In this document: piece after piece, positions 4,660-25,453 of the stretch
Layout: the number at the start of each line of letters is the position of its first letter
Numbering within the stretch: position 1 is the stretch's first letter
NCBI RefSeq assembly: GCF_000003605.2
Contig: NW_003133849.1
Location: forward strand, 123,073 to 159,759
Length of the DNA: 36,687 nucleotides
Source of the DNA: Saccoglossus kowalevskii
Taxonomy: Eukaryota; Hemichordata; Enteropneusta; Harrimaniidae
Reading direction: 5' to 3'
Notes under the pieces: generated by a model
The model's input: only the letters and a program-made list of their open reading frames with translations
The model's database searches: none
What the model was told of the DNA's origin: nothing
Position numbers and translations under genes: made by a program

Positions 4660-5286
4660 CTAGCCGTCTGTCTGGTCATCGTTAGGCGTGTTCAGTCGTT
4701 CAGCAATATCGTAAATGTTCACATCGGTGTCTCGAAGATCTTCATAATCTGACATATCTGGGGGTATCAAGAGATCCAAGACATTAACGTGAGTCTACAT
4801 ACAGATATGAAAAGTAGATCACAAAAAATGTGAGAAATAAAAATTCAAGCGATTTTAGGAATTTTCAACTCAGATTGGTGTTATCCGTGTGTCTACAGTT
4901 TTTGCCTTATTCTTCTGTAAAATCCTCGCTCATTTCTATTCACATACTTGTACATGTACTTTGATTTCTCGACTAGTGTCCATAAAGTTATCCGACGCCT
5001 CTGATGAGAACATTTTCGATTTATACACGGTTTCGCGTGGGATTCATTCATCAATGTGAATTCCACGCTATCGTAAAACATGTGCACCCACCCCACATAT
5101 TTACAGTTGGAATCTCGTTGCGTGTCAGTGTCTATGATTATGATAGTTGCCCATTGCTTATTCTGCATTTTTTGTTACCGACTGATAGGACGAACACTGT
5201 TGTAGATTTATGTCAAATATTTACCTTTGAGCTCTGTGGGATGTTTGTCACGCGCTGCGCTATATTTGGAACTCGTTATTCTTCGG
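4660..5286 (-). CDS. Receptor exons 27-29: cytoplasmic tail and stop
   Basis: Exons 5286-5225 (62 nt, phase 2-1), 5000-4948 (53 nt, phase 1-0) and 4794-4660 (135 nt with TAG at 4662-4660) code for residues 1434-1516. Splice sites are good (acceptor TTCTTTTCGCAG, donors GTAAAT and GTATGT, acceptor TGTATGTAG). The tail is hydrophilic, with tyrosines in SKYS (1442), SDYEDL (1489) and NIYDIAERL (1500). Nothing resembles a kinase glycine loop, HRD or DFG motif here, and no kinase exon was found in the remaining 4.6 kb to the window edge. The small exons were found by phase matching, so each alone is less sure than the chain. Confidence 0.75.
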
Positions 5287-8200
5287 CTGCGAAAAGAACA
5301 AAACATTCAGTAACATTCATATTAATATTGATCTTTTCTTAGTTAAATGTGGACAAAATGGGAAACAATCCTAGATATTAGTCAAAGTTTTGAAAAGAAA
5401 TAAAAAAAAAATGTTTTGTGAACAATGACGAAATTTGACTTTGGCGCTCGAGGGTTAACAACATAATAAAAGCAATGTATGTGAAACACAGGTATATGTT
5501 CCGTTATGGAGGGACACACACAACAAACAGTCCGAAATCTAATAATTAAACTTGCATATTATTCCCCGATGTCTTCGTTCAACTGGGGGGAAATACGAGT
5601 GACGTGAGAGCCATAAGGGCCAAGTAGTGATGCGGCCCTTATGTTATGAGTACCCCCCCCCCCGGATGAACGAGGAAAAATATTAGGGATATTATTATCA
5701 CATATACAAGTTGTTGGTTTCTTCAATGAATTATGATTTTTTTTCATCTGACTTTCTTTGGGACTATGTTTTGAAAAATTACATGTAGTCATGCGCTAAA
5801 CTGATAACATAGTACATATTGTTACAGCTGACAATTTCGTTTTAAGAATATTTTCGTTCGTGTACAACATTCATTTTAACGAAGTGATGATCCACGCTAT
5901 GGAAAAAACAATGATGCCATTTAGTGACAAATAAAATTGATATCATGAACTTAATTATAGGCATAGTTTCTTCGGAAAACTATACTATTTGAACTTGAGT
6001 TACTCCCCTGGGTTATTCTAAACGAAAGCAGAGCAACTCCCAAATCGTCTACGACTTTCACGGTTTTTTCGGTACGTCCATAGACCATATTGCAAAACAA
6101 AATGTTAGTGCATTGTGGGGTAGTTAGTTAAAGTTGCACGCGCGCGCGGCTTGCGATGAAAATTAACGGAGTTGTGTTCGATCGAAGTTTGATTCGGTCA
6201 AAACTATCCCACAATGCACTAACATTTGGATTTGATTATAATTTTTGAATTCCCCTTTTATAGCTCAATGTCGATCTTTGAGAGGGGAATATTCCCTTAA
6301 AATACCATAACTTCATCAAAGTTGAATATCATTAAATGTGTATAGCACATTAATAGACGTGACAATACCCCGTCCCAAACTTGTCGAATCTCACGCGGTA
6401 TGTTGACATAACTGCGACGATATAAATATTCTTTGTCCTGTTTGTACGTTCGATGTCACGCATACCGCCAGATCTCACCAAATTGTTCGCGCAATTTTTC
6501 ATCTACTAAAATGCAATACACAGAATGAAAGAAAAGTTCCTTTCAAAACAAGATGGATTTCGTTGCTGTCTTACCTGAAAATTGGCTGTTTATGTCTTTT
6601 CCAAAAAAACGCCACCAGTCCAATAGTAATGACTATAAGAATAACAAGGAGGCCCACAAAAATTCCAATATATGTTCCAGACCTATTTCCCCCAGTTGAT
6701 GTCGATGCCACTGCAGGTATAAAAATATTCAATGAAATTGATATTTCAAATACAGTTACATACACAAATCGAAGGAAAGTATAAATATAATTTGTTATCA
6801 CCGAATCGTATTTCGGATATTCGTCATCATCGAAAAGAACACAATTCTAAAAATATAACTCGCCTGAAAATGTTCTGAAAGGTTTGTTGAATAAATGAAT
6901 TTCTTGAATCTGTTTTTAAAAAAACGTAAAATGATTCTTTATAATAATCACAAAGTATTCTAATAATTGGGTTTATGAAATACAGATTATACATTTAATA
7001 TCTAGACTAGCCTCAGTATGGAGAATGATACATGGGCGTAAGATCAATAGTTTCCCTAAAACAGCATGTGACGTTAGATAAAAAAAAATGCCCCAAATGG
7101 TGATACTGATTTCGCTTTTTAACACTATTAAGAACTAAAACCGCGCAATAAGAAAGACAACTGTACATATGAATTACTTTCACTTACCCCCGTTGTCATT
7201 ACTAAGACGCCATAATAAACATAGTACCGATTTCCTTCCGTCAATGGAGCGTTATAATAGCCATTGTACATCATGCCGTCCCCCAGGGTAAATTCTGCTG
7301 GGATCTCATTAAGTGTGAACACAGCAGCGATGTAATAAGGCGCACCACCCTGGTTATAAGTAGACAGTTTGGCTAAATTTTCATCCCATCTAAGATCGTT
7401 CGCTGCATCAACGTTAACAGCAATAATGTATTTCCTAGGCGAAGATAGATAATGTAAAACATTTAAAAAATGCAGTGTTTTTTTTTCTTTTGTTGTAAAA
7501 CAAATTTAATAAAGACGCATTGATATATAGCAACGACTATAACAAATACAGTTTAAAAATTCCAGGGCGATAGTTTAAATAACAACAACCATGCGTTCGA
7601 GCCGGATAACTCAAATTACTAGTATGATATTGTAATAGTACAGGTGTATATGCAAACTAGCTAATTTTCATATCGCGCTCACTTTTCTTATTTATTTCCG
7701 GTCAGTATCGCATAATTAAAAATGGCATTTTCATTCAAGTTCACAAAAAATGATGACTTTTAGCTGAATTGTCATGTTACCAGTGAAATTTAATCCTACA
7801 CCAACAGAACAAGTTTGTCATTGTCTTGAATGCTTCAATTCCCACCAAAAGTACACGCATCAAAAAACATGCACGTGATTTGCTTTGTATATCAAAATAT
7901 TGTATACAAGACTTGAATTCATTTCATCCAAATTGTACAATTTGAATCATTTCTTCACTTGTAGTTTCTTCCGGAAGTCGTTTCAGTTATGGAAGTCATT
8001 TACACTGGTAACCAAACTAGCCAACCTCAGCCAATGGTATGATGAAATAACTCTTGATTGCCAAATAACAAAAGAGACCACGTGATCATTAGATTCAAAT
8101 AAATCCTGAACTAGCCATATTCCACATTGAAATAAATCTTTCCAGAAAACCGACCTGTTATCCACGAGGAACAATTTATTGTTCCAGAGTAGAATACATG

Positions 8201-11200
8201 AAACCACAGAGGGACTGTGATGAAACAGAATTTTGTTTTTATACTTGCAACCAACTATATCCCGCCCCAAATAAATTTATCAATTATTTTGTTAATATTT
8301 TTGACATAATATTCTTGCATTAGAATTAGTGAAGAAACAAAAATAAACTTTGAAATAATAAATATTTCTCTGTCTCCATATATTAAACACATTTTTGCTT
8401 TTTATTCTATGTTCAAAGTTACTTTTAGCAGCCTCGTTCCTATCATAAGAAACAAATATTCCCAATATTCGATATGTCAAGTAGTTTTATTTTGCACATG
8501 CGCAATGAACCAAGCCACATAGCTTCCGTTTTGCCCTTGTTAATGTTTAAACCCGAAAAACGACCGAGTTCTTCCACGGTTAAAAAAAAATTGCGGAATC
8601 AATATCAGGTTAACAAAAACATTTGTATCGTCCGCATATTGGGCTAATTTTAGTTCTTCATTACAAATATTAATACCCTTATATTGTTTATTTTGCCTGC
8701 TCGAGATTGTCAGCAATTCTACGGCGGTATCAAAAAGATAACGCGATAAACATGCCGTTTGATATAGCAAGCTAAATTTTATCATCAATTAAAAAAACAT
8801 GCTTTTACAGACGGAAATGTGCATTATTGTTGACAAATATCCTATTGTATGCTGGGTATGACGCTCACACCGGTCAAGTTACCGACAGTGCAAGTAGCCA
8901 ATCAGCACCCCGTTTCTTTCAATAATGAGAGATACGTCATAGTGTTACAGATCATAATTGCCCAAAAGTTTCAGTGTGTTGTTGAGAGGGTGGAATTATA
9001 TTGTGATGTCGTAATGCAGGCTTGGTTCTGGCCCGGGGTTCTGGCTTCTGAGTGGTCGGTGTCAACAGATGGCGATAATTAGAGAAGGATTTGTTGATAG
9101 GGAACGTAGTTCACCTTGCCTGGTACAAATTGAATTAAAGCTACCAGTGTATAAGTAGCCTCGGGACATCGAGTGAATGTTTTGACCTAAGCCTATCCAT
9201 CGACCCTGTGTTGGTTACTACACTTCAACTATGCATGGACATGTGCGTGCATACTTTGAGGTATCCTCGTAATAACCTTAATATTATACACCTTTTCTTT
9301 CCAAGGATACATTATAAGATTGCCATAATCCAAAACGTTTTGAACAGAATCAGCGAACTTCTTTGTATGGATTCCGGTCAAACCCTGGTGGCAGCCATAT
9401 TTCTTTTTATTATTAGAGGACGCTTACGCGCGTAATCATTCCATATTTGGAATTCTTATTTCCTAATATGGTAGGATGAAAATACCCTGTAAAATACCGC
9501 AAAATTACGGCACGTTGTAATGGCGTTACGGTGACAGATGTATAATAATATGTGTCATTGAGCATTCATTTATTTTGTGGTAATTTGAATATTCAAAAAT
9601 ATTATTTGTGCTGTGCGAATTTGTTAAGCCATATATAGTATATACAACATGACGAAGTTCCCTACTTTGTCAATGCATCTCACGTTAGGATAAAAAAAAA
9701 CAGAATTGTTGCATGCGCTTGTCAATTCTCTCACTATTCAAACACACTTTGTTCGTGTACATACAGAAGATTTGTTTCTTTCTTGATATTGCTGTCATCA
9801 AGTTGTGGAAGATAAAAAGAAGAAGAATGACCATGTCCTTGTATTTCCTCTATTCCGGCAAATATGTCAATTTCTAGTTGAAAATAAAATGTGAAAGATT
9901 AGTAAGAACGCTCTGTGAACATATAAGCAGAAAATAATTCACTTGGTGTTATACTTTATAACTTAACAATACGTAGCATTACCTTTCATTTTTGTTCCAG
10001 TGAGTATCGTATCCGAAGCTCCAAAACCTGCCTTTGTACTTGCAGAAACGGATATCACAAATTGAGTTCCTGGCGACAATCCATGTAAAGTATATGTATC
10101 GATATCGCCATGTAGAGTAATGGTGCGGGACGTTTTGTTGGCGTTTAAATATATCGAGTCCCTATATGAAAGCGTTATCTGAAACACAACAAAAACCGTA
10201 ATGAGTACGTGAAATGGGAGTGAATATGATTGCTAATGTAAATGAGTGCCAGTGTAGATCGTGTGTAACTTATGCGTACAGTAAAACCAGTGTAACCAGA
10301 CATGTTGTGTTCTAAACAGATGACCTATATATGAAAGATACTTTTCGGCGAATGGAAATATGACATCAATTTGTCAGCTTGAGAAGCAAATATAGGGTCG
10401 TTTCACTAAACCAGTGCCAGATGCATGGTAACACGAACTGAAAGCTGATTTTTGTATATATATGGTTGTATCGGGGATGGTCAGTAGTGGTAACCAGCAA
10501 AGGTTTTATCACTGTAACTTTTTACCGACACTGTTAAATTGATATATTACGATAAGAAAGTCTTTTGGAGGGGTAGGTCAATCCGAATAAGACGACACAT
10601 AGTAAAGAACACACACACAAGACAAACATACATATAGCATATCTCAACCAACATTGATTTTCAAAGGCTTTAAACTGTGAACAAGTATTATGGTTAATAT
10701 ACTAATCTTGATTAATGCAAAATTGTACAATTACTCACCATATATTTGATAATATTTCCGCTGAATGTAGCTGGCGCAGACCATTTTAGTACAATGATAC
10801 TATCACTGCATATGAGAACTTGGAGACGCGTTGGTTTCGCTGGCACTATGAAAGTATAAACTATCGTCGATTACAAAGATGACTTGCCTAAAAATATTAA
10901 ATAATCTTACAATTGTCATAAATATGAAATTCTGAACAATTGACATATACTGAATTAATAATTGGAATAAACTTACGTGTGTCTGATGTACGGATAGTCA
11001 CAACATCACTTGACATTCCCTGACCTGCTTCAACACTAGCAGCGACCTTTCCGTACAAAACATAGCGATATATCAGTTTATTTCAATAATTTGTTTACAA
11101 ATTGTGCTACTACATTGTTTTTTTTGTGTAACCACATGAATATCCTGTCGAAGAACATTTAAAGGCACCGTTTTCAGAATCATCAAACACGCAAGGCTAA

Positions 11201-12720
11201 ATTGAAGCCAGACGTTAGTGATATACATCATACTCTGTTGTTATAGCAACAATTACAGTGATGAAATCATAATTAAATTATATAACTGCAATATACTATA
11301 CCTGTATTTTATAGTTTACATTATATTCAAGATTATGTATAGTGTATGTATTATAATTGCCCAAGTTGTCAGTGATAACAATCGTCTGTGTAGTAGTGAT
11401 ATCTCCAGACTTCCAGTAAAATAAACAATAGTTTATAATGCTTTCGTTAATATACTCTGGTATGTTCCATTCAACTGTGATTGAGCTAACCGTGGCGTGT
11501 AGTGTCACATTTCGTGGAGCCCGTGGAACTACAATCAGAAATATATGCAAAACAATGTTACTTACTTGTAGACATCAAGTTTCATGCAGAAACCATTTCA
11601 TTACGACTCAGGATGATATCTGGGAGCAGGTTGTGTTCACTCATTTTGAAAAACCTCATATCAATTCATGTATACAATGGGGTCCATACATTTCTCTATT
11701 ACTTATGTGACCATGTTTTATAGTATACCTGTTTTGTTCTTGTACATTGTTTTGTCGATTGTTTTGTCATTTGTTTGTTTAAAATGAGATATAGTTTGGT
11801 ATGTTATTTCTATTGTGCTACTCACGTGACTGCACGGAACATAAAGTTTATTAAATATATTAATCAATGGAATAAACATACGAATATTCAGACATTCCGT
11901 TACCTGTCAGAATGCCAATGGGTCGGTATATTAATTGAACTGTCTGTACCTAAAATAAATACAGATGGTATGTACGTGATCATGATATCTGGTACTGGCA
12001 AGTGTAGACAGGTATTAATATTTCTTACGTATTCAGTATGCCCAAATATCGGTTTACAAAATATCATTTAACATATGATAAACATATATATAAATATATA
12101 ATCAAATATTGCTGTTTGACGATGGTTGATTTTTCGTAAATTATAATTGTTACTTTAACAACACGCTTTATAGCGTATTCGATTGATGCCAAATGTAAAA
12201 CAGTAATACGCATGCGCAGTAATTATTATTGTACGTACCAAAACAGTGTGCATTTATGTATTAGAGAATTTCCCCCGAATGGGTACGCCGTTGTTTTATC
12301 ATCCATATTGCATATTATAATAACGAATATATTAGGATCATTTACAAAGGTTCCTTACCCCGCTTGTCAATACGGATAAACCATATAATAAGTTAAAAGA
12401 CCTGCCAGGAGTTAGTGGAACATTGTAATACCCGTTGTACACCATCCCATCGCCTACAGTGAACTCAGACGGAATTTTATTCAGTTGAAATGAGGCTGTT
12501 ATGTAATATGATGACGAGCTGTCATTGTACGCAGTTAGCATGACGACGTCTATGTCACTTCCGTCGTCTATGTCACTTCCGTTATTATGTGGACTTTTAT
12601 GGTGGACGACAATAATGTAGTTCCTGTATGAGCACGATAGTAAGAGTAAAATAAAAAAAATACATTAAATAAATAATACTCTAAAAAATCTTTAAAAAAG
12701 GCTGAACGTTGGACAAAACT

Positions 12721-12755
<35 letters not shown>

Positions 12756-15700
12756 CATCGTAATTTAACAGGTGAATGAAACACCGTCAAATACTGAAAA
12801 GTTACATTCTATTGGCGCATTGTTTCTATGTATGGAGGGGGAAAAGGATCTTTTCTACCTCCGGTGAGAACGGATGTCTTCAACTTATTATTTCGAAAGA
12901 GTAATAACACGCACACCTGATACCCGCAAATGATAGATTAACAAACTGTGTAATGGCGTTGTATATACATGTGTAAATTTATGGTATACGTACAGTAGGC
13001 TTGTATTCCTGTCAATCCTATTATCTGCTATCTGTGGTAGTTGAATGTCGACTGTCGCATTAGTAAGTTTAAGCTGCTCCGTGACGTCAATAGCGTCAAG
13101 AATACTTGTCACTGGAAAATAAATTTCCGACATTCACATTGTGAATACATTTTTTTAAATAATGCATCTCAATGAGTTGTATTTGAAAAATGAATAATAT
13201 GAAAGTGTTCCAAAATATGTACATAGTATTTGGAATGGGAAGGTCAATTTATTATATTTTCATATGGTATTACCTGATATATCCGTTCCAGTTATTATTG
13301 TATTCGCCTCACCGAATCCTACCCCTGTACTAGCAGACAGGGACACACGAATCATTGTGCCTGGAGGTAGGTCTTGTAATGTGTACTCGTTAATATGACC
13401 AAAGACTGTGAGGTTTTGAAATATATTGCTGGCATTCCAGTAGACAGATTCGATTGATGAATATGCTACCTACAAAAGTAGGATAGTTATTTCAATACAG
13501 TAGGGGTCTGATGTTATACATATTCACGGCAGTTTTTTAGCATCATCTTCCAGGCGAAGTATTACCATGCAAGGTTTTTATATTTCAATTTATTTATACA
13601 AACATGAGAGTGATATATGATCTCAGACCCACCTCGTACTTAGTGATATTACCACTGAATACAACAGGTTCGTTCCATTCCAGTGTAATAGAATTGTTGT
13701 TTGTAAACACTACGTTGAGATAATCTGGTTTGCCTGGAACTGAAATATTAGCAACATAGGGAAAACAGGAAACACTGTCAATAATAGCTTTCTATCATAT
13801 AATATATAAAATGAAATTCTGCTCAAAGTCTGAAGTCCATTATGCACAATTTAATAGTGTACTATCGTACACTTGTAAATGTTGAAAATAGAACGTGTAA
13901 TCACATACCCGTGTCTGCTGTCCGTATTTTGACAACATCGCTAGCCATCCCGGTCCCTGCCCCTGTTGTTGCTGATACCTAAGGAATAAAACAGAAAAAC
14001 CAAATAGTTCATGTCTCTTGATGAACTTGTTACCACTGCTATATGGCCACGGGCTTTATGAGATACTAGATAAACGTGAATTCACCTGTATAGAATACTG
14101 GACATTGTAGTTTAGATCTCTTAGTATGTACGCATTCACATAATTCAATGTGTCGGTGATATGCACCACTTGTACTGTGGTATGGTCGTCTCTCTTCCAG
14201 TATGTTATCATATAATTACGAATTATACCATTGACATATTCGGGTATGACCCACTCAACAGTTATCGAATGCGCCGTGTGCTGTAGCGTTACATTTCTAG
14301 GTTTAGTCGGAGCTGTAAGATACGTATAGACAATTGGTATAAGACATTTTACAAATGTTCACCCGAACAGAAGACGGGCAGTTTTAGCGACTTGAAGAGC
14401 TCATTGCCGCGCGGGGTGAAATTAATGTGTTCTCTGTTGCGCCCAAATATTACTAACCTCGCGTTTTTTACAGGGGCAGCCACTGAAACATGCTAACGAT
14501 GGTGCTTACCCACAGATAAGCGATTTATTGCTTATTTTTTTCATTTAACTAATTATTACGCAATTAATAGTTTACAGCCTTTGACCTTTAAATGTTTAGG
14601 ACCACAATTCACTTACAAAACCCTTGCGAATAGTCGCCGTGTGATGGCGTTTTAAGCCTCGTTTCATAGTCGGCGAAATGGTTACGTAATATTTGAGTTG
14701 ACGCTGATACCTATGACATTTTACATTTTGGTTTGAGTATAACGTTTATTCTTGCTAGATGATGGCTAGCGTTAACATCGTTGCAATATCCTGACATGGT
14801 TCAATATTTAATATAATAATAATTTATAAATACATACTTACTGGCTTCTGGTGTTAAAACCGTGATAAAGTTACTTATTGGGCTTTCGAAATTGTAGTTT
14901 CTAACAACTGTAGTTACTTCGTATATAGTGTACGGTATCAAAGAATCACTTGCAACCACATACGTATCAACACTGGATAGATTCCCTCCGATATCGAACT
15001 GTTTCGTTTGGTACTCATCGTCCATGTTCGCTTTCCGATATTTGACTTCGATGTTATCGATGTAGCCATCAACATTATTTACATTACATCTTATTTGATT
15101 GGCAGTCGGTATCTAACAGAGAAAGAAAATAGTTGGTAATGCCCCACAATAGAACGACCCAGGAAACATGTACAATGTATGTGCGTGTTGCAAAATGGCC
15201 ATTTTATTCCACCCGAAAAAGATGGTAAGTTTTACAAAAATAGCCAAGTGGCCCATGAACTTGTTACTTAAAGGGCGGTAGTCGTCGCGACGCGTCCTGT
15301 TCGATATGCGACTCATAGCGACGTATACAACGCGTGTAAAATACATTGTTTATTTACATGAAATTCGAACACGCGCTGCGCGACGACCACCGCGCTTTAA
15401 TATAACTAACACTAGACGTCGCCCAAGTCCATGGTGTACGTCCATATACCACGCACGAAAATACAGCATATTTGGGTAAACATTATAAGAGAGTAGACGA
15501 TACAAGGCGCTTAGTTGTAGTCATTGCGTACCTAAAATAAGTACACGGGTAAGGATCATTATTGTTATAAGCGTAAACACAAACATTATTGGATTATATC
15601 AGACAGCCACATTGAATACATGAATATTTAAATTAATTAAATACCTGTATTTTAATATGAATCTCTTTTTGACGGGGAGCTGATACATCTATAACAGTGA

Positions 15701-18700
15701 GTTTATCTGGCTCTGAAATATATAAAGCGATTTCTTAAATCAGCAACAGTAGTATATGTGATATTATTCCTAGTAACTAGATTTATCATAATCGTTCTAA
15801 TATTATTATCGTATTGATGAGTAAAAAATAGATGTTACTGTCTCATAATTTATTATACAATATATCGTACATCTTGCCTATAGTTATTTCATTATTCAAC
15901 TTCTCATGGTAATGTTTTGTGTATATGCATATTATAATGGTAAAGCTGCTGGCCACGTGATCGCATATCGCTCGTTGCGTCTTTATATATTCGTAATGTG
16001 CTTGTAATTCCATGTACTTATCATTTCCGAAAACACGTAATCATCAAGTTCCTTGTGAAGGAAACAGTCAAACATTGCAGTGATATTTAATAACTTCGCA
16101 ACCTACTGCCGCATGTTGTAGTTTCTGTAACAGTTATCTCGTCGCTGCCTTCACCAAACTTTCCTGGTCTGGTCACAGTCACCGTGAACTCGTAAGTGGT
16201 AGACCAACGTAATCCTATGACGTTTGAACTATAATTCTGTACATGTGTGCCATTCGCTGCCTGATATTCTACATACATCCAATTACTGATGTTACTCTCT
16301 CTGTAGTACACTGTGTAACCTTCGATCGGACCATCCCCTATATCCCCAGCAAGGGGATTCCATCTATTCCAAGATATTCTGATTACATCTGGATAAATCT
16401 TTGTGATATATGGGTGGTTATTAGAATGAAATCTTGGAAGTTCTGTAAATGAAATGCATTCATATATTCACAAAGATGAACAGCCGTGCGTATATGATTT
16501 AAGTGTTAGCATATGGGAGACGGAGTCAAGGGGATTGGCACGAGAGGGCGCCGTCCGATCTGGATGAAATTCTAAGGTTCTATACTCCTGTTCACTCAGC
16601 AGTGTGAACTTCACTTGCTTTCGACATTTATTGGAGAATAGAATCCAGTTGAGGTAGACGTAAAGCCAAAAAGTCTGACTAGGAACATATTTAATTCAAC
16701 CATTTAGTGTATAACAGATGCATTTTTATTTGACGTGATTTTTATCGTTTTTAAAATATCATTATTGTCAGGTTACACGTGCAGCCCTGCCATCAGTCGA
16801 TATCAAAGCAGTGTTTGCTGCCAATATGCGAATACTGCTACTGCACTACTGTGTACTGATCGTGTAAACCATGCATCCATAATAATTATTTGGTTTGTTA
16901 AAATTGAGAAATCCTGGACACTTTCGTCTGGTAATGTATGTATGTGCGTATATTCGCGTGTCGTTTGCTCGCGAGCTTCTGCACATACCGGTAAATAAAA
17001 TACAATCTCCTACGACGCGCTAACCACACTCTCTCTTTCTTTATTAGGGACAACATCAAAAGTTCAATGTAGGATAACAAACTTAATTTCTTTAGCTTTT
17101 TCCCCAAACCCCCTACCCCCCACTGAAACTTAATTGATAAATATTGATCACGTCGTCAGACTACATTCACCATTAAATACAAATTGATAATCGGACAGTA
17201 GTATGGCATAGCAGTTGGTTCTAGGTCCATGCCCTGAAATTGACCTCATTGGACGCACATATTTACACTCGGACCAAACCATTTTCTCGTCTTGGATGTG
17301 TGTTTTTTTTCATTTTCTGTTATTTTTTTCCATGATTGAATAGAAAAAACACGAACTACAAATACTCCATGATTTTTTTGACTTCATTAAAAAATAAAAT
17401 CGTTTTTGTAGGATGGAAATTTTTTGAGGTCACCCCCCCCAACCCCCAAACTAAAGCAAATAAGTTTTTTATCCGACATCGATCTTTTGACGTCGTCCCT
17501 TACTATGCTACCACTGCACGTATAATTCATTTTGTAACAATTTATGGACATTATATTTGAACCCATTATTGTGTGAAAACAAGGCTCGGATGAGGATTTT
17601 CGCTTAAATAATGGCCTCGCTACGTCTTATCTATTATTGAACATAACACAGTTTTTAACTATTATCACGTCACGCAGTAATGGACAGTCGTTCAATATCC
17701 ATTACTACTAAAGACATGGATTATATATATAGACTTTCACGATGCCCGTCCCAATCAAGCTCGGATTAGACAAACCTCGTAAATGCTATGAAACTTACCA
17801 TATAGTTGCGTGGTTATAGCAACCGAAATCATTTCATGTGGAACATGGCACACAAAGTCACGTGTGCTGTTCACAACCACGCCACTGTAGTTACCAACGG
17901 CAATGTACGTGTCACGCGTGTAATAATCACTTATAGTGACGTATTCGGCTGTGTCCTCGTTCACAAGCATCATGTGAGTCTGCTGTATGACAGGATTACT
18001 AATGACTTCACATATAAAGTAGGTCTCTTCACCAGGATTGACTTTTTTGGTGTAGTGGTCTCCAAACTTGACACTGCCGTCTAACAGAAAAAGCATCATA
18101 GAAGTAATATCCATTGCGTGAATTATTTGAGATTGAGCTATTTATATTCTTCTGCTATTTTACATTTGGAAACTTAAAGGTTGTAAATACTTAGTCTCAA
18201 TACTGTCAGCCGTATGCCAAATGGTCGACAGAGGGCAGTATCCTTATTGGTTATGTTCTGCTCACATGATTGCACGATGCAGCCAATTACCAAACACTTA
18301 TGAAGAATTTGATCATTTTAGATTTCGTAAATTTCCCCACTACTTAATCCATTTTTTTCTTGTTCACTTAGTCTCAATACTGTCAGCCGTATGCCAAATG
18401 GTCGACAGAGGGCAGTATCCTTATTGGTTATGTTCTGCTCACATGATTGCACGATGCAGCCAATTACCAAACACTTATGAAGAATTTGATCATTTTAGAT
18501 TTCGTAAATTTCCCCACTACTTAATCCATTTTTTTCTTGTTCACTTAGTCTCAATACTGTCAGCCGTATACCAAATGGTCGACAGAGGGCAGTATCCTTA
18601 TTGGTTATGTTCTGCTCACATGATTGCACGATGCAGCCAATTACCAAACACTTATGAAGAATTTGATCATTTTAGATTTCGTAAATTTCCCCACTACTTA

Positions 18701-21700
18701 ATCCATTTTTTTCTTGTTCACCTTCTACTGCACCTTCGGCCTAATGTAATTGTGTATTCTAGACATTAAAATGCCGAAGTTGTTTGATGGGACTTACACT
18801 TCCTGTCCCGGCGTTCGCAATTTATACACGCCTATTACGTTTATACACAATTTGTATTAATAATATAGATTAATATTAGATACGACCGACTGTCGACAGT
18901 CTACATACTAACCTAAGACACATACATACCTTGTTGACAATCCGAATCTATAGTATCTAGATTTATCCATCCTGGTGCACAATCTCCATTTGGACAAACA
19001 CCAGTGTTCTTATCACATGCTGCATTGTTTTTACAATGACAATTATAGTTGCATAATTCACCATAGAAACCAGTGGAACATGAAGATGAGACTGTAGATG
19101 AAGTTATTCAAGAACGATGTATGTGTTTTGCGTAATTCACGTGCAATGCATATGAATGTCCAGTATTGCGATACTTTGAGCATTCGCACTGGACACAGGA
19201 AAGAATGGTGCGACTGTTTCTTACACATCTGCCTGCGAGGCACTTGTTATGCACGTGCACCAAGGGTACTACACTCACTGAGTCTGCGTCAACTATGAGC
19301 GATGAATGATTTCTGTGTAACGTGGGATTGTAAAAAAACCTCGTGGTAAATAACAAATACACAAGGACGATATTGATAATTTGTGTAGTACAGATCACGT
19401 ATACATATATTATATCACATATACTGTGAAATACTTTATTTTCGCTGAAAGAATGATTGAGTGAAAATAAAACCCAGCGAATATACTTTTTTCCTATACT
19501 TTAAATTCAACATGTCAAAAATCAGTGAAAATAAATTCCATACAAAACACCCAACAAGTTTTTTTTCAGCGAAATTTAATTCCAGCTAAAATAAAGTATT
19601 TTAAAGTATGCACTTTGTATCCTGGAAACTTGAAAGTGAAATATCTGTGTGAATATTTCGATGTTTATACCTTGGCAGTTATGTCCACTAAATCCAGTTA
19701 TGCAGGAGCCGCCATTATTACACGCTCCTGTTTCCTTATTACAACCGGTGGTGCAATGACAAGTCTGTGTGCACCCAGATCCGTATTTTCCCTGAGGGCA
19801 GTCTGAAAATAATACATTTAATGACACATAAAAAATGAACTTTGTTTTATATGAGCTGCGTTTTCGTACTATTTAATTTATGTATCACTGTGGTAATATA
19901 CTATGTAAATGCGAATAGCAGTAACTAGAAAATGAATAAAAAAAAACTATTTTTCATGTATTATTCGCATGTTATTATTATAGATGTCAGACGGCATATC
20001 AATATCATAGTTTCACATAGGTAATTATTACATTGATTACAAAATGTAAAAAATGTGAAAGGTCAGCTCATGTTCCTTTATATTAAAAAGTAAAATAACC
20101 CCTCATTAACGAAATATTGAGAAAGCACACTCGTTCTAAGGTGCATGGTGCTGTGAAATATCGGAAATGCACGAATCAAAACTGCGCTACAAATATTCGA
20201 AAAGGTGGTACTCGTTAGACAGGGCGCTGTAACGTACTCTTTCGGTCATATTGACCAATCGAACATTTTCAAAATCCTGACGATTCCTGATTTTCGCATG
20301 TTTATCACTTTTTATGAAAGCTCAAATCGCACCATATGAGATTCGGATGAATTGTTTACATAAACACTGATTGAAACTCCAGATACATCCCGGGAAAACA
20401 ACTTTTGTAGTCTAAGGGCCAGTAGACGGTTTGCCTAATTCTACTTCCCCAAGTAGTTCACGCTCTCCAAGGTTGTGGTGTTTTGTTTAGTTACTGCATT
20501 CACCTTCAAAGCAGTCTAACCCTGTGTAAGACGCCTGACACGAACATCCATACGGGTCCTGCAGACATAGCAGTCTACTACGGCATACGTCAGATTTGTG
20601 AGACGAACATTGTCGGTCACAATTATGTCCCCAGTAGTTATTTCCACACCCTGAAATTAGAAATACACGTCATCAGATAAATTAGACATACCAGACATGT
20701 TCACATGATAACTACTAGTATATTGTTTTTTTGTACTTTTGATTCAATCAGTTGTTACATTGCCTCAAACACACATTGTTGATGCTCTCAATCTATAGGC
20801 ACCAGTATTCACAATTCTACAGTCTGATACAGGATAACTTATGATTTTTTTCGTGGCTCGACTTTTACACTTCCACAAAAAAGAAACAGACCCAGTGATA
20901 TGTCATACCAGAAGGAATGTTCCCCGCCAAAGCTTAATAAATGGGTTAAAATTCTGAATCGGCAGATTGAGACTGCATAGTTTGAGTTATCTCATATTAG
21001 CTGGGACATTTTTTGAAAAGAGCTTCGTGTATTATATTAAGGAATGAATATTCATGACCAGATGGCCATATAGCAATGTTTTAGAACAGGTGAAAACACA
21101 TCTTTCAGTTAATATGTTTGATTAGTTTCATTTATGTGTGATAGAGTGCAGTTGGTTTTTCCGAGTAAACTATAAACTAAATAGCATGATAGTATAATTC
21201 TTAAATAATTTCGTCATTTTCGTTTTTTTAACGTATGCCTCAACCTGGGACAATGCGTGTCAGCAACCAATTGCTAATAACATTAACTGCGTCTCGTACA
21301 GAATAGTACGCGCACAAGAAACTTAAAGGGCGGCATGCGCAGTCGTCGTGTCGCGTCCTGTTCGTTATGGAACTCATAGCGACGTATACAACGCGTGTAA
21401 AATACATTGTTTATTTACATGAAATTCGAACAGGCGCTGCGCGACGACCACCGCGCTTTAAGTTATCGGACCATAGACCACATCGCAATACCGAATTATA
21501 GTGCATTGTGGAATAGTTTTAAGTGAATCAAATACAAGTCTATCAAGAAGGGGGATGTTGCATGGCACTATTTGCTGAAAAACTTGTCTCATTTGCCTTT
21601 GCATAAATGTTCCACGAGCAATGAAAAATTCGTCTTTTCAGGAAAATTGTGCCAAACATTGTTCTCCGTTTGAAAATCTCCGCCCAGGAACAGAAAACAC

Positions 21701-24700
21701 ACAAGTATTACTAGGCACAATAATTAAAACGTGTATTAATGCGTAAGTTTTCTCTACCTTCCTTGCACAGATTTCCCTTGAATCCAGGTGGGCATACACA
21801 CTCTCCAGTCTCTGCATTGCATATTCCTCCATTGTAACAAGATGGGCAATTGTTCAGGCAGTTCGGCACACCATATTTACCGTTAGGGCACCCTTTAAGA
21901 TATGCAGATGACGTCACGGTCACATTCGTCATCAGGATTGTTTGTTAGTACTAACAGATGTGTGTTATTGCTTCTTAAATACTTCACAATCATTTCGAAT
22001 TTATGTTTATTTAATGAATGCAAATACTCTGCAAACCAGATTGTTTTCATTCTATTCCCTCTGGTGGAGTTGTTTTCATCTAAATAGAATCATAGCCATT
22101 TCATCGCACGGGAATGTTGAAATATTATTTTGGGGGGCATTATTATTATTATTTATGTTTGTAAATATACGTGCCTCTTATCGAATGGTTTAGACGCTCG
22201 TCAAAATCATTTTCATGATTATTCAGCTCTTACCTATTAAATAGACTGTAAAATTACAAATAATGTAAAATTACAAATACAGATACTAAACGCAACTGAA
22301 ATGTGCGGACAGATTCAATTGACGTATTTGCCTTAAAATGTTTGCTTTCTATTTTCATATTTTCGTTCTATCTTGCATGCTGGGATAAATCCACTGAATA
22401 CAGTGTGACTTCCGAGAGAAAATCAATAAAATGTGTAAACACGCATGCGCACTGCTTCATCCGAATAAACACCATGTTTGCATGCAGCACAACAACGCTC
22501 AACGTGTGCCTTAGAATCTAAACAAGAGTATCAAAAAACACACGTGTTAATAAATGTAGTGGCATATACAACAACGTAACATATGAGCGTATATTAAAAC
22601 ATGGTTGGTATAAACTCCTTGCACATGGGACTGTGAGCAAAATATTCATGCTCAACATATTAAGTAAATGTTACTCACCTCTCACGATAAGTCTCATGAA
22701 ACCATGTAAACCATTTCGTCTCTGTTCTTCGCTAGAGTAACATTCATAAATTCCAGCATCTGATGGTTTAGCTGATGTAATTGTAATACTACTTTGTCCA
22801 TTCCATGCTTCTATATCCACACCATTATGTTTCCATTTCAGTTGTGTTGCTGATATTGTTGTTGATTTTATAACCATACCAAGGCTCATATTTTCACCCC
22901 AACTCACGGTCTTAGTATGACTTTCCGGAAGTATTGAAGCTAGAAAAATAATACACTGGTGTATAGAATGCGAAGCATACCTCAACTAAAAGTATGCGCC
23001 TACTATTTAAAAGAAACACGGCCCTTATTCATTTTGCAATGAGGCGTATCCGGTACTTCTGGGTAATATATTTTGGTGGGATTACCAAATTATTTTCATA
23101 CCTTTGGTTTTATTTTAGTAAATAGTGGCCGATTTGTCTGTATAAATCGATCATATTTTTAACTAATTATCACTATTTCTAGGACAATACTAAAGTTATG
23201 AAACTCGGCAGCCATGAAAACCGCGTATCGTTTATCCAGTTCTTAATTAGAAAAATAAATTACCCATAGGATTACCCATTCCTTCAAAATTGTACTAGGA
23301 TTCTGACATTTTCCACTGAATTCATGAAGTAACCATGGTCTCTTGATGCCAGGATTTATGAATTTCACAAATAAATAGAGCCCTGTTTCTATTTACCCTT
23401 TTTAGAATACACCCACATGTATGTTTTCATAAAGTTTGACTACGAAATGTAGACATGCCCATTTGGTCAACAATAAAAGAAATTGTAGAAAATACGTAAA
23501 ATATGTTTCAGTGATTGTGACGTTGTTGGGGCTACCTTATTGCATGCGTCAGAATGCATAATTTTGTAGTGGTGTTATAAGTCACCTGATCACCCGAGTG
23601 TATTGATATATGTAAAAAATAGTGCCTTTGGGGTAACTGAAAGTAAACAAGAAGTTAAACTTGAAAGCTCTCTGGTATATTTTATGCTTCGTGTGTTCGT
23701 GAGTCAACATATCACAGTGATATATTGTCGGAAAAACAATATGGCGATCAAATGATTGAAATATGCGGTTACTAAGCTAGAATGCAAATTACATCGGTGA
23801 TATTTTGTTTTTAAGGAAAATACAAGAGCTTCGTTCACACAAAATCTGGACATATTCATATTGGTTGTTATATTCATAGTTATATCGGCCTATCATTACC
23901 ATCGCTCATAGTAGAGTTGAGTCGAAGCGTATATATAACGCCGAATTTGATACGCCGACAAAATTGTCAACAAACAAGCTGCTCTCTGATTGGTCTAACT
24001 CATAGGTGCCATGTACGCCTCTGTGTCATGTGATCCATGGCCATACTTCGTGCAAAAACGTCATACCATATATTGGTTTGAATTACTCACCGTCCAGTGA
24101 CAAAACTACCGTTTGGAATCTTACGTCCATGACGTCACAGTAGTATACACCCGGTCGTCCAGCCCCTTCTGGTAAATAGAGACGCTTTGCAAAATCGTAC
24201 CTGTCTCTTATACGGAATCCATCTGGCAGCTCACCTCCCGTACCTATGTCGATTACTCTGCCGTATTTAAATGAGGACCGAAGTTCTTCCGCGGATTCAC
24301 CTGATGAATATCCACCAATGAAATAATCGCCCGATTGTCTCACCACAGCCTTGGCGTTGAAGAATGTCACCTCTATATAAGCAACTGATTAAAATATATC
24401 GAATTATTGTATAAGTCTTTCCGGGAATCTTAGAACCTTACTGCGCATTTTATGATAGGAAATTTGTTTTATGTGTAATACAGCAAACACGCACATGCAA
24501 AGACCTCAACGATATGTAGCCATAAATGTAGCTAAACATATGAGCGGAATACATATGGAAATGGAGTGATCATATGCTTCTATTTGTCGAATTGGAAAAT
24601 ATAAATACGCACCGTGACATTATGTTTACATGTGAAATGTGGCTACGAGTTTTTGACCGAACAATTGTACACAACATCGGAAGTTTGATGATACGATAAA

Positions 24701-25453
24701 TTGTGTCCGGTTCGAATAACATCTTCTTGTAAACAATTATTGTTTATGTCGCCTTATTTATAGAAACGGTAAATTTCAGGCAATGAATGATAACGCAAAC
24801 CCGGAATACATACACGCTGTGGGGCACAATGTCTGCTGCACTGCACATTGCGCGACAGGACTAAGGCCCGGGAACGAGCATACTTTCCTGGTTATGATGA
24901 TATTTTGACAGGACATGCAGAAAATGTTCATATATATTATTTGGTGCAAAATCAACCAAAAAAATTAAAAAATTTAAAATTGAACCAAAATTAAAATTCT
25001 GGGTTAATATATGACGCATGGTCTTATAGATTTTCATGTGAAAGATGTAAGTTCGGTTATTTTCGGGTGAAAGATGTAAGTTCGGTTATTTTCGGGTACT
25101 ATCAACTGAGCAAATGCAGATAATATATAAGGAAAATCAACCAGGTTGATGTATGCGAGAACAGTGTAAAAACGAAAGGCGTTAGTATCAGACAAACTGC
25201 CGTCGTATAATTGCATGGTTATTCGTCTTTTTCACTATCAAATATGTTCTTCAAATATGTGTTGTCACATCAAGATGAACATACAATTGGAGTACTAGTC
25301 TAGTTACAGATGTTAATCACGTACGTCCTTTCGACATAATTGTCACGTTCGTACAACATATGAATATGAAGATATTCGTAACAGTATATACCCACCTCCT
25401 GCTGAGATCTGTAAAACTATCAGTAGTGCATGAAATAAAAACGTAACTTCCAT
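4660..25453 (-). CDS. Tie/angiopoietin-receptor-like transmembrane receptor without kinase domain (29 coding exons, 1516 aa)
   Basis: Type I membrane receptor rebuilt from splice sites and phases. Exons in transcript order: 25453-25396, 24372-24091, 22939-22679, 21892-21758, 20650-20504, 19802-19671, 19091-18930, 18080-17799, 16442-16107, 15712-15645, 15112-14842, 14312-14086, 13978-13909, 13739-13633, 13469-13274, 13111-12994, 12623-12359, 11949-11904, 11528-11302, 11046-10977, 10845-10739, 10178-9983, 9873-9765, 7434-7188, 6909-6864, 6710-6575, 5286-5225, 5000-4948, 4794-4660. They sum to 4551 nt with every phase matching. Domains: signal peptide 1-19, Ig 20-113, Ig 114-200, four EGF-like 201-392, Ig 393-486, FN3 487-598 and 599-711, then two FN3-FN3-membrane-proximal blocks (712-1054, 1055-1388), TM about 1402-1425, tail 1426-1516. 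Ig-Ig-EGFs-Ig-FN3s is the Tie1/Tie2 ectodomain order. Vertebrate Tie has three EGF and three FN3 domains plus a kinase; here there are more of each and no kinase. A soluble or membrane ligand receptor role is inferred; the ligand is unknown. UTR limits were not determined. Confidence 0.85.
6100..6227. mobile_element. Foldback MITE in receptor intron
   Basis: AAATGTTAGTGCATTGTGGG at the left end pairs with CCCACAATGCACTAACATTT at the right end, giving a roughly 128-bp inverted-repeat element in the intron between exons 26 and 27. A related half, ATAGTGCATTGTGGAATAGT, sits at about 21498-21517, and similarity continues upstream into CCATAGACCA in both, so the true element may start earlier (near 6078). 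Confidence 0.55.
6575..6710 (-). CDS. Receptor exon 26: transmembrane helix and stop-transfer
   Basis: Codes for residues 1389-1433, phase 1-2. A Ser/Thr/Gly-rich stalk (VASTSTGGNRSG) precedes a hydrophobic stretch of about 24 residues (GIFVGLLVILIVITIGLVAF) and then the basic stop-transfer WKRHKQ. This fixes the topology as type I with the Ig/EGF/FN3 part outside. Acceptor ACCTGCAG; donor GTAAGA. Confidence 0.92.
6864..9873 (-). CDS. Receptor exons 23-25: membrane-proximal module, second copy (block B)
   Basis: Exons 9873-9765 (109 nt, phase 1-2), 7434-7188 (247 nt, phase 2-0) and 6909-6864 (46 nt, phase 0-1) code for residues 1255-1388. They duplicate exons 16-18: KYIIAVNV, PYYIAAVF and EFTLGDGMMYNGYYNAPL match the first copy. 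Exon 25 (IQEIHLFNKPFRTFS) equals exon 18 in length and phase and shares its I/V-Q-x-I/V-x-L and K/R-P pattern, but the following donor reads GCGAGT, not GT. The intron between exons 23 and 24 (9764-7435) holds a LINE fragment. Confidence 0.78.
7940..8800 (-). pseudogene. LINE reverse-transcriptase fragment, 5'-truncated and frameshifted
   Basis: Minus-strand frames carry successive pieces of a non-LTR retrotransposon ORF2. The first has RT motifs ending NEELKLAQYADDTNVF (YADD at 8627-8638). Next is ELGRFSGLNINKGKTEAM in another frame after a poly-A slip near 8581-8590. Then come RILGIFVSYDR...VFNIWRQR and finally LWNNKLFLVDNRSVFWKDLF. The last two motifs are typical of the L1/Tx1 type. Broken frames and loss of the 5' half show that it is dead. 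It lies in the intron between exons 23 and 24 in the same orientation as the host gene. Confidence 0.75.
9983..10845 (-). CDS. Receptor exons 21-22: fibronectin type III domain 6 (block B)
   Basis: Exons 10845-10739 (107 nt) and 10178-9983 (196 nt) code for residues 1154-1254. FN3 motifs are KPTRLQVLI, SIIVLKWSAPATFSGNIIKY, LHGLSPGTQFVISVSAST and TILTGTK. Lengths and phases equal those of exons 14-15. Confidence 0.85.
10977..11528 (-). CDS. Receptor exons 19-20: fibronectin type III domain 5 (block B)
   Basis: Exons 11528-11302 (227 nt) and 11046-10977 (70 nt) code for residues 1055-1153. They are the duplicate of exons 12-13: the first exon matches at about 42 of 76 residues by eye (APRNVTL, SITVEWNIPEYIN, NLEYNVNYKIQ) and the second ends VVTIRTSDT. 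The acceptor of exon 20 (GGAAAG) is poor in pyrimidines but its position follows from homology and phase. Confidence 0.85.
11904..13111 (-). CDS. Receptor exons 16-18: membrane-proximal module, first copy (block A)
   Basis: Exons 13111-12994 (118 nt, phase 1-2), 12623-12359 (265 nt, phase 2-0) and 11949-11904 (46 nt, phase 0-1) code for residues 912-1054. Key motifs are NYIIVVHH, SYYITASF and EFTVGDGMVYNGYYNVPL. This resembles the domain that lies just outside the membrane in many receptor tyrosine phosphatases and related FN3 receptors (Y-I-V-V-V, then A-A-x-F, then G-D-G-x-x-Y-x-G-Y-x-N-x-P-L). Here it is internal, followed by two more FN3 domains. An 18-bp unit coding GSDIDD/V is doubled at 12545-12580. 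Exon 18 is a 15-codon micro-exon with acceptor TTATTTTAG and donor GTAACG. Confidence 0.78.
12724..12754. repeat. (TA)n microsatellite
   Basis: Thirty-one bases of uninterrupted AT/TA dinucleotide in the intron between exons 16 and 17. Confidence 0.9.
13274..13739 (-). CDS. Receptor exons 14-15: fibronectin type III domain 4 (block A)
   Basis: Exons 13739-13633 (107 nt, phase 1-0) and 13469-13274 (196 nt, phase 0-1) code for residues 811-911. FN3 features are KPDYLNVVF, SITLEWNEPVVFSGNITKYE, the LQDLPPGTMIRVSLSAST strand and TIITGTD. The exon lengths and phases are identical to exons 21-22. Confidence 0.85.
13909..14312 (-). CDS. Receptor exons 12-13: fibronectin type III domain 3 (block A)
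   Basis: Exons 14312-14086 (227 nt, phase 1-0) and 13978-13909 (70 nt, phase 0-1) code for residues 712-810. KPRNVTL, SITVEWVIPEYVNG and the LRDLNYNVQYSIQ strand are standard FN3 motifs, with the G strand VVKIRTAD in the second exon. It opens the first copy of a duplicated seven-exon block; the partner is exons 19-20. Confidence 0.85.
14842..15712 (-). CDS. Receptor exons 10-11: fibronectin type III domain 2
   Basis: Exons 15712-15645 (phase 1-0) and 15112-14842 (phase 0-1) code for residues 599-711. Exon 10 gives KPDKLTVIDVSAPRQKEIHI, a degenerate FN3 start. Exon 11 carries the C-to-G strands, including IDNIEVKYRK and PYTIYEVTTVV, and ends LTPEA. The usual B-strand tryptophan is missing, so this is the most diverged FN3 of the set. 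The intron between the exons carries a piggyBac-like MITE at 15268-15400. Confidence 0.75.
15268..15400. mobile_element. piggyBac-like TTAA MITE, copy 1
   Basis: This 133-bp element begins TTAAAGGGCGGTAGTCGTCG and ends, read on the other strand, TTAAAGCGCGGTGGTCGTCG. It is bounded by TTAA on both sides, the piggyBac target. The centre (ACTCATAGCGACGTATACAA) is identical to copy 2. It lies in the intron between exons 10 and 11 of the receptor gene and has no coding capacity. Confidence 0.75.
16107..16442 (-). CDS. Receptor exon 9: fibronectin type III domain 1
   Basis: Codes for residues 487-598, phase 1-1, as one exon. FN3 hallmarks are the B-strand tryptophan (VIRISWNRWNPL), the GDGPIEGYTVYYRE strand, and the G-L-R-W-S-T-T-Y-E-F-T-V-T-V strand with the conserved tyrosine. 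The acceptor is CATTTACAG. The GTAGGT donor at 16106 was chosen because it keeps phase 1; the open frame runs a few codons further. Confidence 0.83.
17799..18080 (-). CDS. Receptor exon 8: third Ig-like domain
   Basis: Codes for residues 393-486, phase 1-1. Unlike the first two Ig domains it has a normal cysteine pair (TYFICEV, Cys416; DFVCHV, Cys470). N-glycosylation sequons occur at NYS (456) and NST (463). Its place between the EGF block and the FN3 block is the place of the third Ig domain in Tie1/Tie2. Donor GTAAGT. Confidence 0.85.
18191..18721. repeat. Tandem array, three 177-bp units
   Basis: Units start at 18191, 18368 and 18545 with the word TTAGTCTCAA (TACTGTCAGC follows). The copies look almost identical; the clearest difference is GTATACC for GTATGCC in the third. 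Because 177 is divisible by three, a 182-codon plus-strand frame runs through the array (18221-18769), but it is antisense to the receptor and merely repeats itself. The array is in the intron between exons 7 and 8. Confidence 0.9.
18930..19091 (-). CDS. Receptor exon 7: EGF-like module 4
   Basis: Codes for residues 339-392, phase 1-1. CSTGFYGELC, CHCKNNAAC and NTGVCPNGDC show the EGF-like cysteine spacing, with a longer final loop before the last cysteine (Cys390). Vertebrate Tie receptors have three EGF repeats, so this fourth one is an extra. Donor GTATGT. Confidence 0.83.
19422..19608. mobile_element. TACTGTRAA-family MITE, copy 1
   Basis: It begins TACTGTGAAATACTTTATTTT and ends in a near reverse complement, AAAATAAAGTATTTTAAAGTA, over about 187 bp. 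CAGTGAAAATAAATTCC inside is shared, in the other orientation, with the copy at 34481-34653. It sits in the intron between exons 6 and 7. Confidence 0.65.
19671..19802 (-). CDS. Receptor exon 6: EGF-like module 3
   Basis: Codes for residues 295-338, phase 1-1, with cysteines at 296, 305, 309, 311, 315, 322, 328 and 337. The pattern CPQGKYGSGC, CHC, CNKETGAC and GFSGHNC is that of tandem laminin/EGF-like repeats in Tie, MEGF and scavenger-receptor families. Acceptor TATTTTCAG; donor GTATAA. Confidence 0.85.
20504..20650 (-). CDS. Receptor exon 5: EGF-like module 2 with Tie signature
   Basis: Codes for residues 246-294, phase 1-1. It begins GCGNNYWGHNC and contains CLQDPYGCSC (residues 274-283), then YTGLDC. 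The C-L-x-D-P-Y-G-C-S-C string is characteristic of the second EGF repeat of vertebrate Tie2, as recalled from family knowledge, and is the strongest single sign that this receptor belongs to the Tie lineage. Acceptor TAATTTCAG and donor GTGAAT are clear. Confidence 0.88.
21323..21461. mobile_element. piggyBac-like TTAA MITE, copy 2
   Basis: This 139-bp relative of 15268-15400 is in the same orientation, again bounded by TTAA, in the intron between exons 4 and 5. It differs by a few substitutions and a short insertion near the left terminus (GGCATGCGCAGTCGTCGTG region). Confidence 0.75.
21758..21892 (-). CDS. Receptor exon 4: EGF-like module 1
   Basis: Codes for residues 201-245, phase 1-1, with eight cysteines (202, 212, 216, 219, 225, 232, 234, 243). 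The second half reads CNAETGECVCPPGFKGNLC, a classic EGF/laminin-type ending that closely resembles the first EGF repeat of vertebrate Tie receptors (T-G-E-C-x-C-P-P-G-F). Acceptor AAAG is weak in pyrimidines, but the frame and phase fit. Confidence 0.88.
22679..22939 (-). CDS. Receptor exon 3: second Ig-like domain
   Basis: Codes for residues 114-200, phase 1-1. It has the core tryptophan (LKWKHNG, Trp149) and the late motif SDAGIYEC (Cys180), both hallmarks of Ig domains. The expected B-strand cysteine is replaced (NMSLGMVI), so like the domain before it this one has a single cysteine. Donor GTGAGT and acceptor TTTTTCTAG are both strong. Confidence 0.85.
22940..24090. other. Receptor intron 2, nothing recognised
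   Basis: 1151 bp between the first and second Ig exons. No exon-like segment, RNA gene or recognisable repeat was seen on either strand. Confidence 0.4.
24091..24372 (-). CDS. Receptor exon 2: first Ig-like domain
   Basis: Codes for residues 20-113, phase 1 to phase 1. The end of the module carries GVYYCDV, the Y-x-C motif of an Ig F strand (Cys98), followed by a strand-like FQTVVLSL. There is no partner cysteine in the B-strand region, so the usual Ig disulfide cannot form inside this domain. First position in the protein and exon symmetry match the first Ig domain of Tie receptors. The assignment rests on the F-strand motif and context, so the fold is likely but not certain. Confidence 0.75.
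25038..25095. repeat. 29-bp tandem duplication
   Basis: Two perfect adjacent copies of a 29-bp unit starting GTGAAAGATGTAAGTTCGG, in the intron between exons 1 and 2. Confidence 0.9.
25396..25453 (-). CDS. Receptor exon 1: start codon and signal peptide
   Basis: The ATG at 25453-25451 opens 19 codons reading MEVTFLFHALLIVLQISAG, a typical cleavable signal peptide with a hydrophobic core and small residues at the end. The exon ends in phase 1 at a GTGGGT donor. This start was chosen because it gives a secretion signal exactly in phase with the next Ig exon. An AG preceded by a pyrimidine run lies four bases before the ATG, so the 5' UTR may itself be spliced; no promoter motif was recognised upstream. 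Confidence 0.8.

Follow-up and report, generated by a model that had tools for sequence, protein, structure and literature searches.

The gene and its domain order

The window, by which we mean the whole 36,687-base stretch of DNA analysed here, lies at the right-hand end of a contig of 159,759 bases (C2565:123073-159759) in the 572 Mb assembly of Saccoglossus kowalevskii. Its minus strand carries a gene running from 25453 to 4660 (window positions), for which we built by hand a spliced model of 27 exons that encodes 1520 residues. As a preliminary description of this DNA had proposed, the frame is continuous, includes a membrane span and ends in a TAG: it stays open from the ATG at 25453 to the stop at 4662-4660, with no internal stop, and it needs 27 exons in place of the 29 then counted. 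The window gene is real, and because its exons were picked by hand, so that GT-AG at 26 of 26 introns is true by construction, the weight of the model rests on homology. The order of domains then proposed likewise stands for the signal peptide, an Ig-type exon, an Ig domain, four EGF domains, an Ig-like exon, the FN3 domains and a single membrane span (Table 1), but the stalk comprises eight FN3-type modules: the six FN3 domains already described are present as six Pfam fn3 stretches (four plus two), and two Fn3_PTPRU stretches (PF23144) had been missed.

Elsewhere in the window, a single-exon frame on the plus strand (32311-33192), divergent from the receptor gene, encodes a cystine-knot protein of the DAN type (E = 8.5e-29 to PF03045). 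Three near-identical 177-base tandem copies (18189-18721, 99% matches) sit in the intron that separates exons 7 and 8, and the Rfam scan gave 0 matches.

Table 1. Exons of the window gene and the features assigned to them (window positions; exon limits in brackets where a feature spans several exons)
Exon	Feature	Position	Strand	Basis or remark
1	ATG and signal peptide MEVTFLFHALLIVLQISAG	25396..25453	-	in-frame TAA upstream of the ATG
2	first Ig-type domain	24091..24384	-	Tie2 alignment over its end only; no match in Pfam
3	second Ig domain	22679..22939	-	Pfam Ig_3 7.2e-6, below gathering score; PDB Tie2
4	EGF 1	21758..21892	-	Pfam EGF_2 3e-4, just below gathering score; Tie2 alignment
5	EGF 2, CLxDPYGCSC as in Tie2	20504..20650	-	Tie2 alignment
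6	EGF 3	19671..19802	-	Tie2 alignment
7	EGF 4	18930..19091	-	paralogous exons at 66-91%
8	probable third Ig	17799..18080	-	position and cysteine spacing only
9	FN3 a	16107..16442	-	Pfam
10-11 (15712-15645, 15112-14842)	FN3 b	14842..15712	-	Pfam
12-13 (14312-14086, 13978-13909)	FN3 c	13909..14312	-	Pfam
14-15 (13739-13633, 13469-13274)	FN3 d	13274..13739	-	Pfam
16-18 (13111-12994, 12623-12359, 11949-11904)	Fn3_PTPRU module e	11904..13111	-	PF23144; RPTP-mu 2v5y
19-20 (11528-11302, 11046-10977)	FN3 f, copy of c	10977..11528	-	Pfam
21-22 (10845-10739, 10178-9983)	FN3 g, copy of d	9983..10845	-	Pfam
23-24 (9873-9765, 7434-7188)	Fn3_PTPRU module h, copy of e	7188..9873	-	Pfam
25 (provisional single exon)	linker and membrane span, span codons about 6678-6604	6575..6846	-	
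26	first cytoplasmic exon RRITSSKYSAARDKHPTELK	5225..5286	-	
27	last exon MSDYEDLRDTDVNIYDIAERLNTPNDDQTDG and TAG	4660..4757	-	YEDL 4746-4735, YDIA 4713-4702

Head, stalk and membrane junction

When compared with the PDB by phmmer, residues 93-342 of the window protein align with residues 70-319 of Tie2 (E = 2.4e-36), across the end of Ig1, Ig2 and three EGF domains. Matches of this strength represent three distinct Tie2 sequences (9lv4, 2gy5, 4k0v), whereas the best non-Tie match reaches 7e-5, and the compact second EGF with its CLxDPYGCSC is common to the window protein and Tie2. The head is thus, as judged from these alignments, Tie-type beyond chance, as had been supposed. Its finer order of Ig-Ig-EGF(4)-Ig is borne out where the Tie2 alignment runs, but support is weaker for Ig1, EGF4 and the third Ig. 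Pfam scores one EGF stretch in the window protein, below the gathering score; EGF2 and EGF3 are assigned by the Tie2 alignment, and EGF4 by the paralogues together with a weak phmmer match to SCARF1 in the PDB over residues 214-386 (1.6e-4). For exon 8 as a probable third Ig there was no Pfam match, and a five-sequence profile reached only an scFv (E = 0.23). Vertebrate Tie receptors contain three EGF domains. Angiopoietin is contacted in the Ig2 domain of Tie2 by residues that we take to be F161 and R167-E169, of which the former aligns with an Asp in the window protein and the latter fall in a five-residue alignment gap. Because the contact loop, so numbered, lies in a gap, the angiopoietin-like ligand proposed earlier finds no support in the sequence.

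The stalk had been taken as Tie order as well. Instead, it resembles that of the mu-group receptor phosphatases: PF23144 is matched in two stretches (3.9e-14), and modules c-d-e are collinear with the RPTP-mu ectodomain (2v5y, E = 1.2e-21; 8a16, 1.2e-17), with a titin chain (8g4l, 1.2e-22) outranking 2v5y for these modules, as FN3 arrays will. As far as such matches can tell, the stalk is not Tie-like and resembles RPTP-mu. A Pfam scan of the whole window model revealed no MAM domain at E values up to 1, and no EMI domain was matched in it. The PTPRU modules raised the idea of a phosphatase instead of a kinase, which was set aside on a motif scan alone: the signature HCxAGxxR[ST] is absent from the readable parts, those not given as N, of C2565 and of the stretches L042, L043 and L053. 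Exons 19-24 repeat exons 12-17 in the same phases, with 42/75, 15/23, 16/35, 28/65, 10/38 and 40/92 identical residues. Since one paralogous contig (C4507) has a single set of the c-d-e type and another (C4521) part of such a set, with FN3 c unmatched, the window gene holds an internal duplication.

The membrane span, set by eye, comprises residues 1434-1458. A short tail had been claimed and is indeed predicted, the TAG following soon after the span, but its length is about 62 residues from the span end, or 87 from the span start, and not 91. The end of exon 24 is in phase 0, but the membrane exon must be entered in phase 1, a step that the model bridges by the long exon 25. The first Fn3_PTPRU module is closed by a 46-nt exon leading from phase 0 to phase 1 (exon 18). 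For such a 46-nt linker, no candidate located between exons 24 and 25 passed the splice filter, which is a weak negative given that the control stretch lacked the exon 18 donor. On C4507, a 46-nt candidate of the same length and phase before the span (EQRIVLREERLAFFT) ranked first, and on C4521 a 46-nt candidate (VEELMLHDSQLTSFT) ranked second, behind a candidate of 73 nt that shares its donor. Exon 18 would splice in phase to the membrane exon, and a one-module isoform is therefore possible.

Paralogues and tyrosine-bearing tails

Residues 1-491 of the window protein have 52 matches in the genome (76 of 76 candidates scored), 7 on C2565 itself and 45 on 13 other contigs. Ig-type exons are found on 9 of the 13, and C1385 has an EGF exon at 70% identity; C894, C257 and C2 show EGF matches only and may belong to other EGF receptors. 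The Ig2 exon is 76, 73 and 70% identical to that of three paralogues, with dN/dS of 0.14/0.59 and 0.17/0.56 against two of them. Only two paralogues could be read past the membrane. That on C4507 has Ig2, EGFs, an Ig3-like exon, FN3 a-d, one Fn3_PTPRU module, a membrane span and tyrosine exons; that on C4521 (stretches L053 and L043) has EGF4, an Ig3-like exon, FN3 a, b and d, an Fn3_PTPRU module, a span and tyrosine exons, the DNA before EGF4 reading N. A stretch of C3108 (4,090 of 10,000 bases N) yielded FN3 a only and one of C772 FN3 a and b only, and neither reached the membrane exon; hydrophobic frames on C772 precede FN3 b and do not represent the span. The contig C3279 stops 0.4 kb past its matched module exon. 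On the same contig, tandem near-copies of the Fn3_PTPRU exon, the later ones with stops, occupy positions 455-966 of the stretch L044 (C3279:101501-102524).

The EGF4 exon also occurs in tandem, some copies with stops, at C772:130424-130915, C4507:64094-64422 and C4194:90326-90633, from which it follows that EGF number varies within the family. One of the two EGF4 copies on C4507 has an in-frame stop, and an in-frame TGA interrupts the full copy of this exon read on C4521; the C4521 paralogue may be broken, or it may skip this copy. Could the window gene itself be a decaying copy of a larger family, with its lesion at the point where exon 24 meets the membrane exon? Stops in paralogous EGF4 exons and the linker missing from this junction would suit such a pseudogene. 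Against it stand 27 exons that are open without an internal stop, an Ig2 dN well below dS, and an exon 18 that could join the membrane exon directly in phase, and we consider decay the least credible of the readings weighed here.

How might the cytoplasmic part of these proteins be built? For C4507 and C4521, we predicted the tail exons by following frames and splice signals, with not all of the exons linking span to tail found, and the predicted tail exon phases on C4507, as read, fail to join. An ITAM has the consensus YxxL/I-x6-12-YxxL/I. On C4521, the span (KLPMLIGSFAVGVAVGVVVTIVIVVLLLYVIRR) is followed by exons with YGEI-x7-YQDL-x7-YEEL and by a last exon with YQDL-x7-YQSL, GKI and a stop; on C4507 (L042), the span is followed by YEEI-x7-YQTL. 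Among 209,304 six-frame residues, the pattern Yxx[LI]x7Yxx[LI] occurs 14 times, with 4 occurrences in the tail exons of these two paralogues and 10 elsewhere. By this count, the putative ITAM-type motif of the paralogues is far from chance. The Y-x2-L/I-x7-Y spacing recurs in the window gene as YEDL-x7-YDIA, which keeps the ITAM-type distance with YDIA as its second half; the exact consensus is absent from the window tail, the half pattern that it displays, in which the second Y stands alone, has 59 occurrences in the same 209,304 residues, and an ITAM-type motif in the window gene is only suggestive.

The window tail contains SDYEDL, and S-x-Y-x-x-L fits the ITIM consensus. Conceivably, the window gene might thus encode an inhibitory receptor, in which SDYEDL, resembling an ITIM, would engage an SH2 phosphatase and which would oppose the ITAM-bearing paralogues, much as Draper-II is reported to oppose Draper-I (PMC4503800). 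The x7-Y spacing of an ITAM is nevertheless retained in the window tail, and an inhibitory role appears very unlikely to us.

Kinase search and the nature of the family

In vertebrates, Tie receptors are familiar as the kinases of vessels, and the preliminary description had given the window gene a non-kinase end. No kinase-like exon was found in the readable DNA past the window gene, but the 12.9 kb beside the window read N and could hide kinase exons. In total, 74,120 of the 159,759 contig bases (46%) are N, in three runs and a fourth (C2565:110184-123072) that ends exactly at the left edge of the window and whose 12,889 N begin 4,660 bases past the stop of the window gene. On C2565, tblastn with eight kinases of this genome produced only chance-like matches (best E 0.073, alignment inspected), and two local kinase profiles reached at best 0.53 and 0.1 on its readable DNA, both in one plus-strand frame (C2565:79662-79802) that was rejected as lying on the wrong strand for the window gene. 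The kinase profile was built from three kinases, among them a TIE2 query. Of 2866 ORFs of C2565, the one that it scored best lies on the opposite strand and reached E = 0.1; the profile found nothing at E 1 in 318 ORFs of L042 or in L054 and L055 (minus strand), and at best 0.5 in 258 ORFs of L043. As a control, it recovered 16 ORF pieces in 8 loci at 2.3e-11 or better; although these loci were not part of the profile, they had been chosen by means of the TIE2 query inside it, so that the controls favour the profile. No kinase was found in the 3.9 kb (C4507) and 7 kb (C4521) that follow the paralogous membrane spans.

Genome-wide, PF07714 has at least 158 matches (142 of 521 candidates scored), and among the matches listed none lies on C2565, C1567, C772, C4269, C3108, C4194, C4521, C1385, C2202 or C2668; those on C4507 are located at 402-464 kb, over 330 kb from its head exons at 62-67 kb. 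The TIE2 kinase query has at least 95 genome matches (150 of 198 candidates scored), and none of those found lies on the ectodomain contigs checked with PF07714. The activation-loop part of this query is matched, at 53-70% identity, by short exons spread over 17 contigs (C2265, C4445, C2390, C1241, C1237, C2031, C2189, C1372, C665, C1501, C1750, C2478, C3408, C4032, C768, C1010 and C4613). They represent an expanded receptor kinase family, whose exon pieces, looked at more closely on C2390, C4445, C2265 and C1237, may be of the Tie, the Ret or another class.

Might the window gene then be an ordinary Tie receptor tyrosine kinase, with its kinase exons in the N stretch and with exon 27 as an alternative short 3' end of a truncated isoform? 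The N run that begins at the window edge, the Tie-type head and the many exons resembling the TIE2 kinase elsewhere in the genome would accord with this. Against it speak the two paralogues that show no kinase over 3.9 and 7 kb, the ectodomain contigs, which among the matches listed are free of kinases save for the distant ones on C4507, and an RPTP-like stalk unlike that of any known Tie, and we regard a hidden kinase as rather unlikely.

Of the possibilities raised at the outset, a separate receptor family with a Tie ectodomain fits best, because paralogues exist and because the two readable tails are short and tyrosine-bearing, with no kinase within 3.9 and 7 kb. We envision, and judge somewhat probable, a lineage-expanded family of receptors that combine a Tie-type head, an RPTP-mu-type FN3 stalk and a short tyrosine tail, and that borrow kinases of the Src/Syk type. 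Ligand binding would cluster the receptors, a Src-family kinase would phosphorylate tail tyrosines, and SH2 proteins would relay the signal, with a Syk-type kinase in this role for the paralogues that have the full ITAM pattern; the tail of the window gene might instead partner with a reader of a single YxxL or with a phosphatase. More tentatively, and as something plausible rather than probable, we propose that a Tie head was shuffled onto a receptor-phosphatase-like stalk with an ITAM-type tail and that this combination was multiplied over ten or so contigs with a variable number of EGF exons, giving rise to an immunoreceptor-like, kinase-borrowing family in which the motif of the window gene has drifted or become specialised.

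A decoy or co-receptor, also suggested earlier, would bind the ligand of a kinase receptor with a tail that does not signal. The lack of a catalytic domain in readable DNA and of an exact ITAM pattern in the window tail would be expected of it, but the window gene, for all its degenerate motif, shares its tyrosine spacing with paralogues whose tail exons carry exact ITAM-type motifs, and among the matches listed no contig has both a matching head and a nearby kinase. A pure decoy is not our first choice and seems to us distinctly unlikely.

If the family does keep a Tie head while signalling through borrowed kinases, then this head is an independent ligand-binding unit, which bears on what it bound before there were angiopoietins and vessels, and ties it to ITAM-type signalling in defence or engulfment. 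A corollary is that an automatic label such as 'Tie-2-like' or 'angiopoietin receptor' in an invertebrate need not imply a kinase. The same genes may already be in databases under Tie-like names. In the titles and abstract beginnings of a partial library, we found no report of Tie-type receptors that lack a kinase or bear an ITAM; for starfish coelomocytes, a 'Tie-2-like' protein has been reported and is termed a receptor tyrosine kinase (PMC13409769).

How does the window gene compare with known systems? With Tie2/TEK (2gy5, 4k0v) it shares the Ig-Ig-EGF head and the same unusual second EGF. It differs in its four EGF domains, its RPTP-like stalk of eight FN3-type modules, the lack of a kinase in readable DNA and an angiopoietin-contact loop that is not retained; Tie receptors have three FN3 domains followed by the membrane span. 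The R2B phosphatases (PTPRM/PTPRU; 2v5y, PF23144) offer a similar FN3 stalk with a long membrane-proximal FN3 module, whereas the window gene lacks a Pfam MAM match and, in readable DNA, the phosphatase signature, and bears a Tie-type head. ITAM immunoreceptors such as CD3 zeta have an unrelated ectodomain, and the second half of the window motif is YDIA, but YxxL/I-x7-YxxL/I as found in such receptors is present in the tail exons of C4521 and C4507. From Draper/MEGF10 the window protein is set apart by its Ig and FN3 domains, its degenerate motif and the missing EMI match; what it has in common with them is the plan of an EGF-bearing single-pass receptor relying on tail tyrosines, and Draper/Megf10 are reported to be EGF-bearing receptors that work via Src, ITAM and Syk (PMC8092387, PMC4503800).
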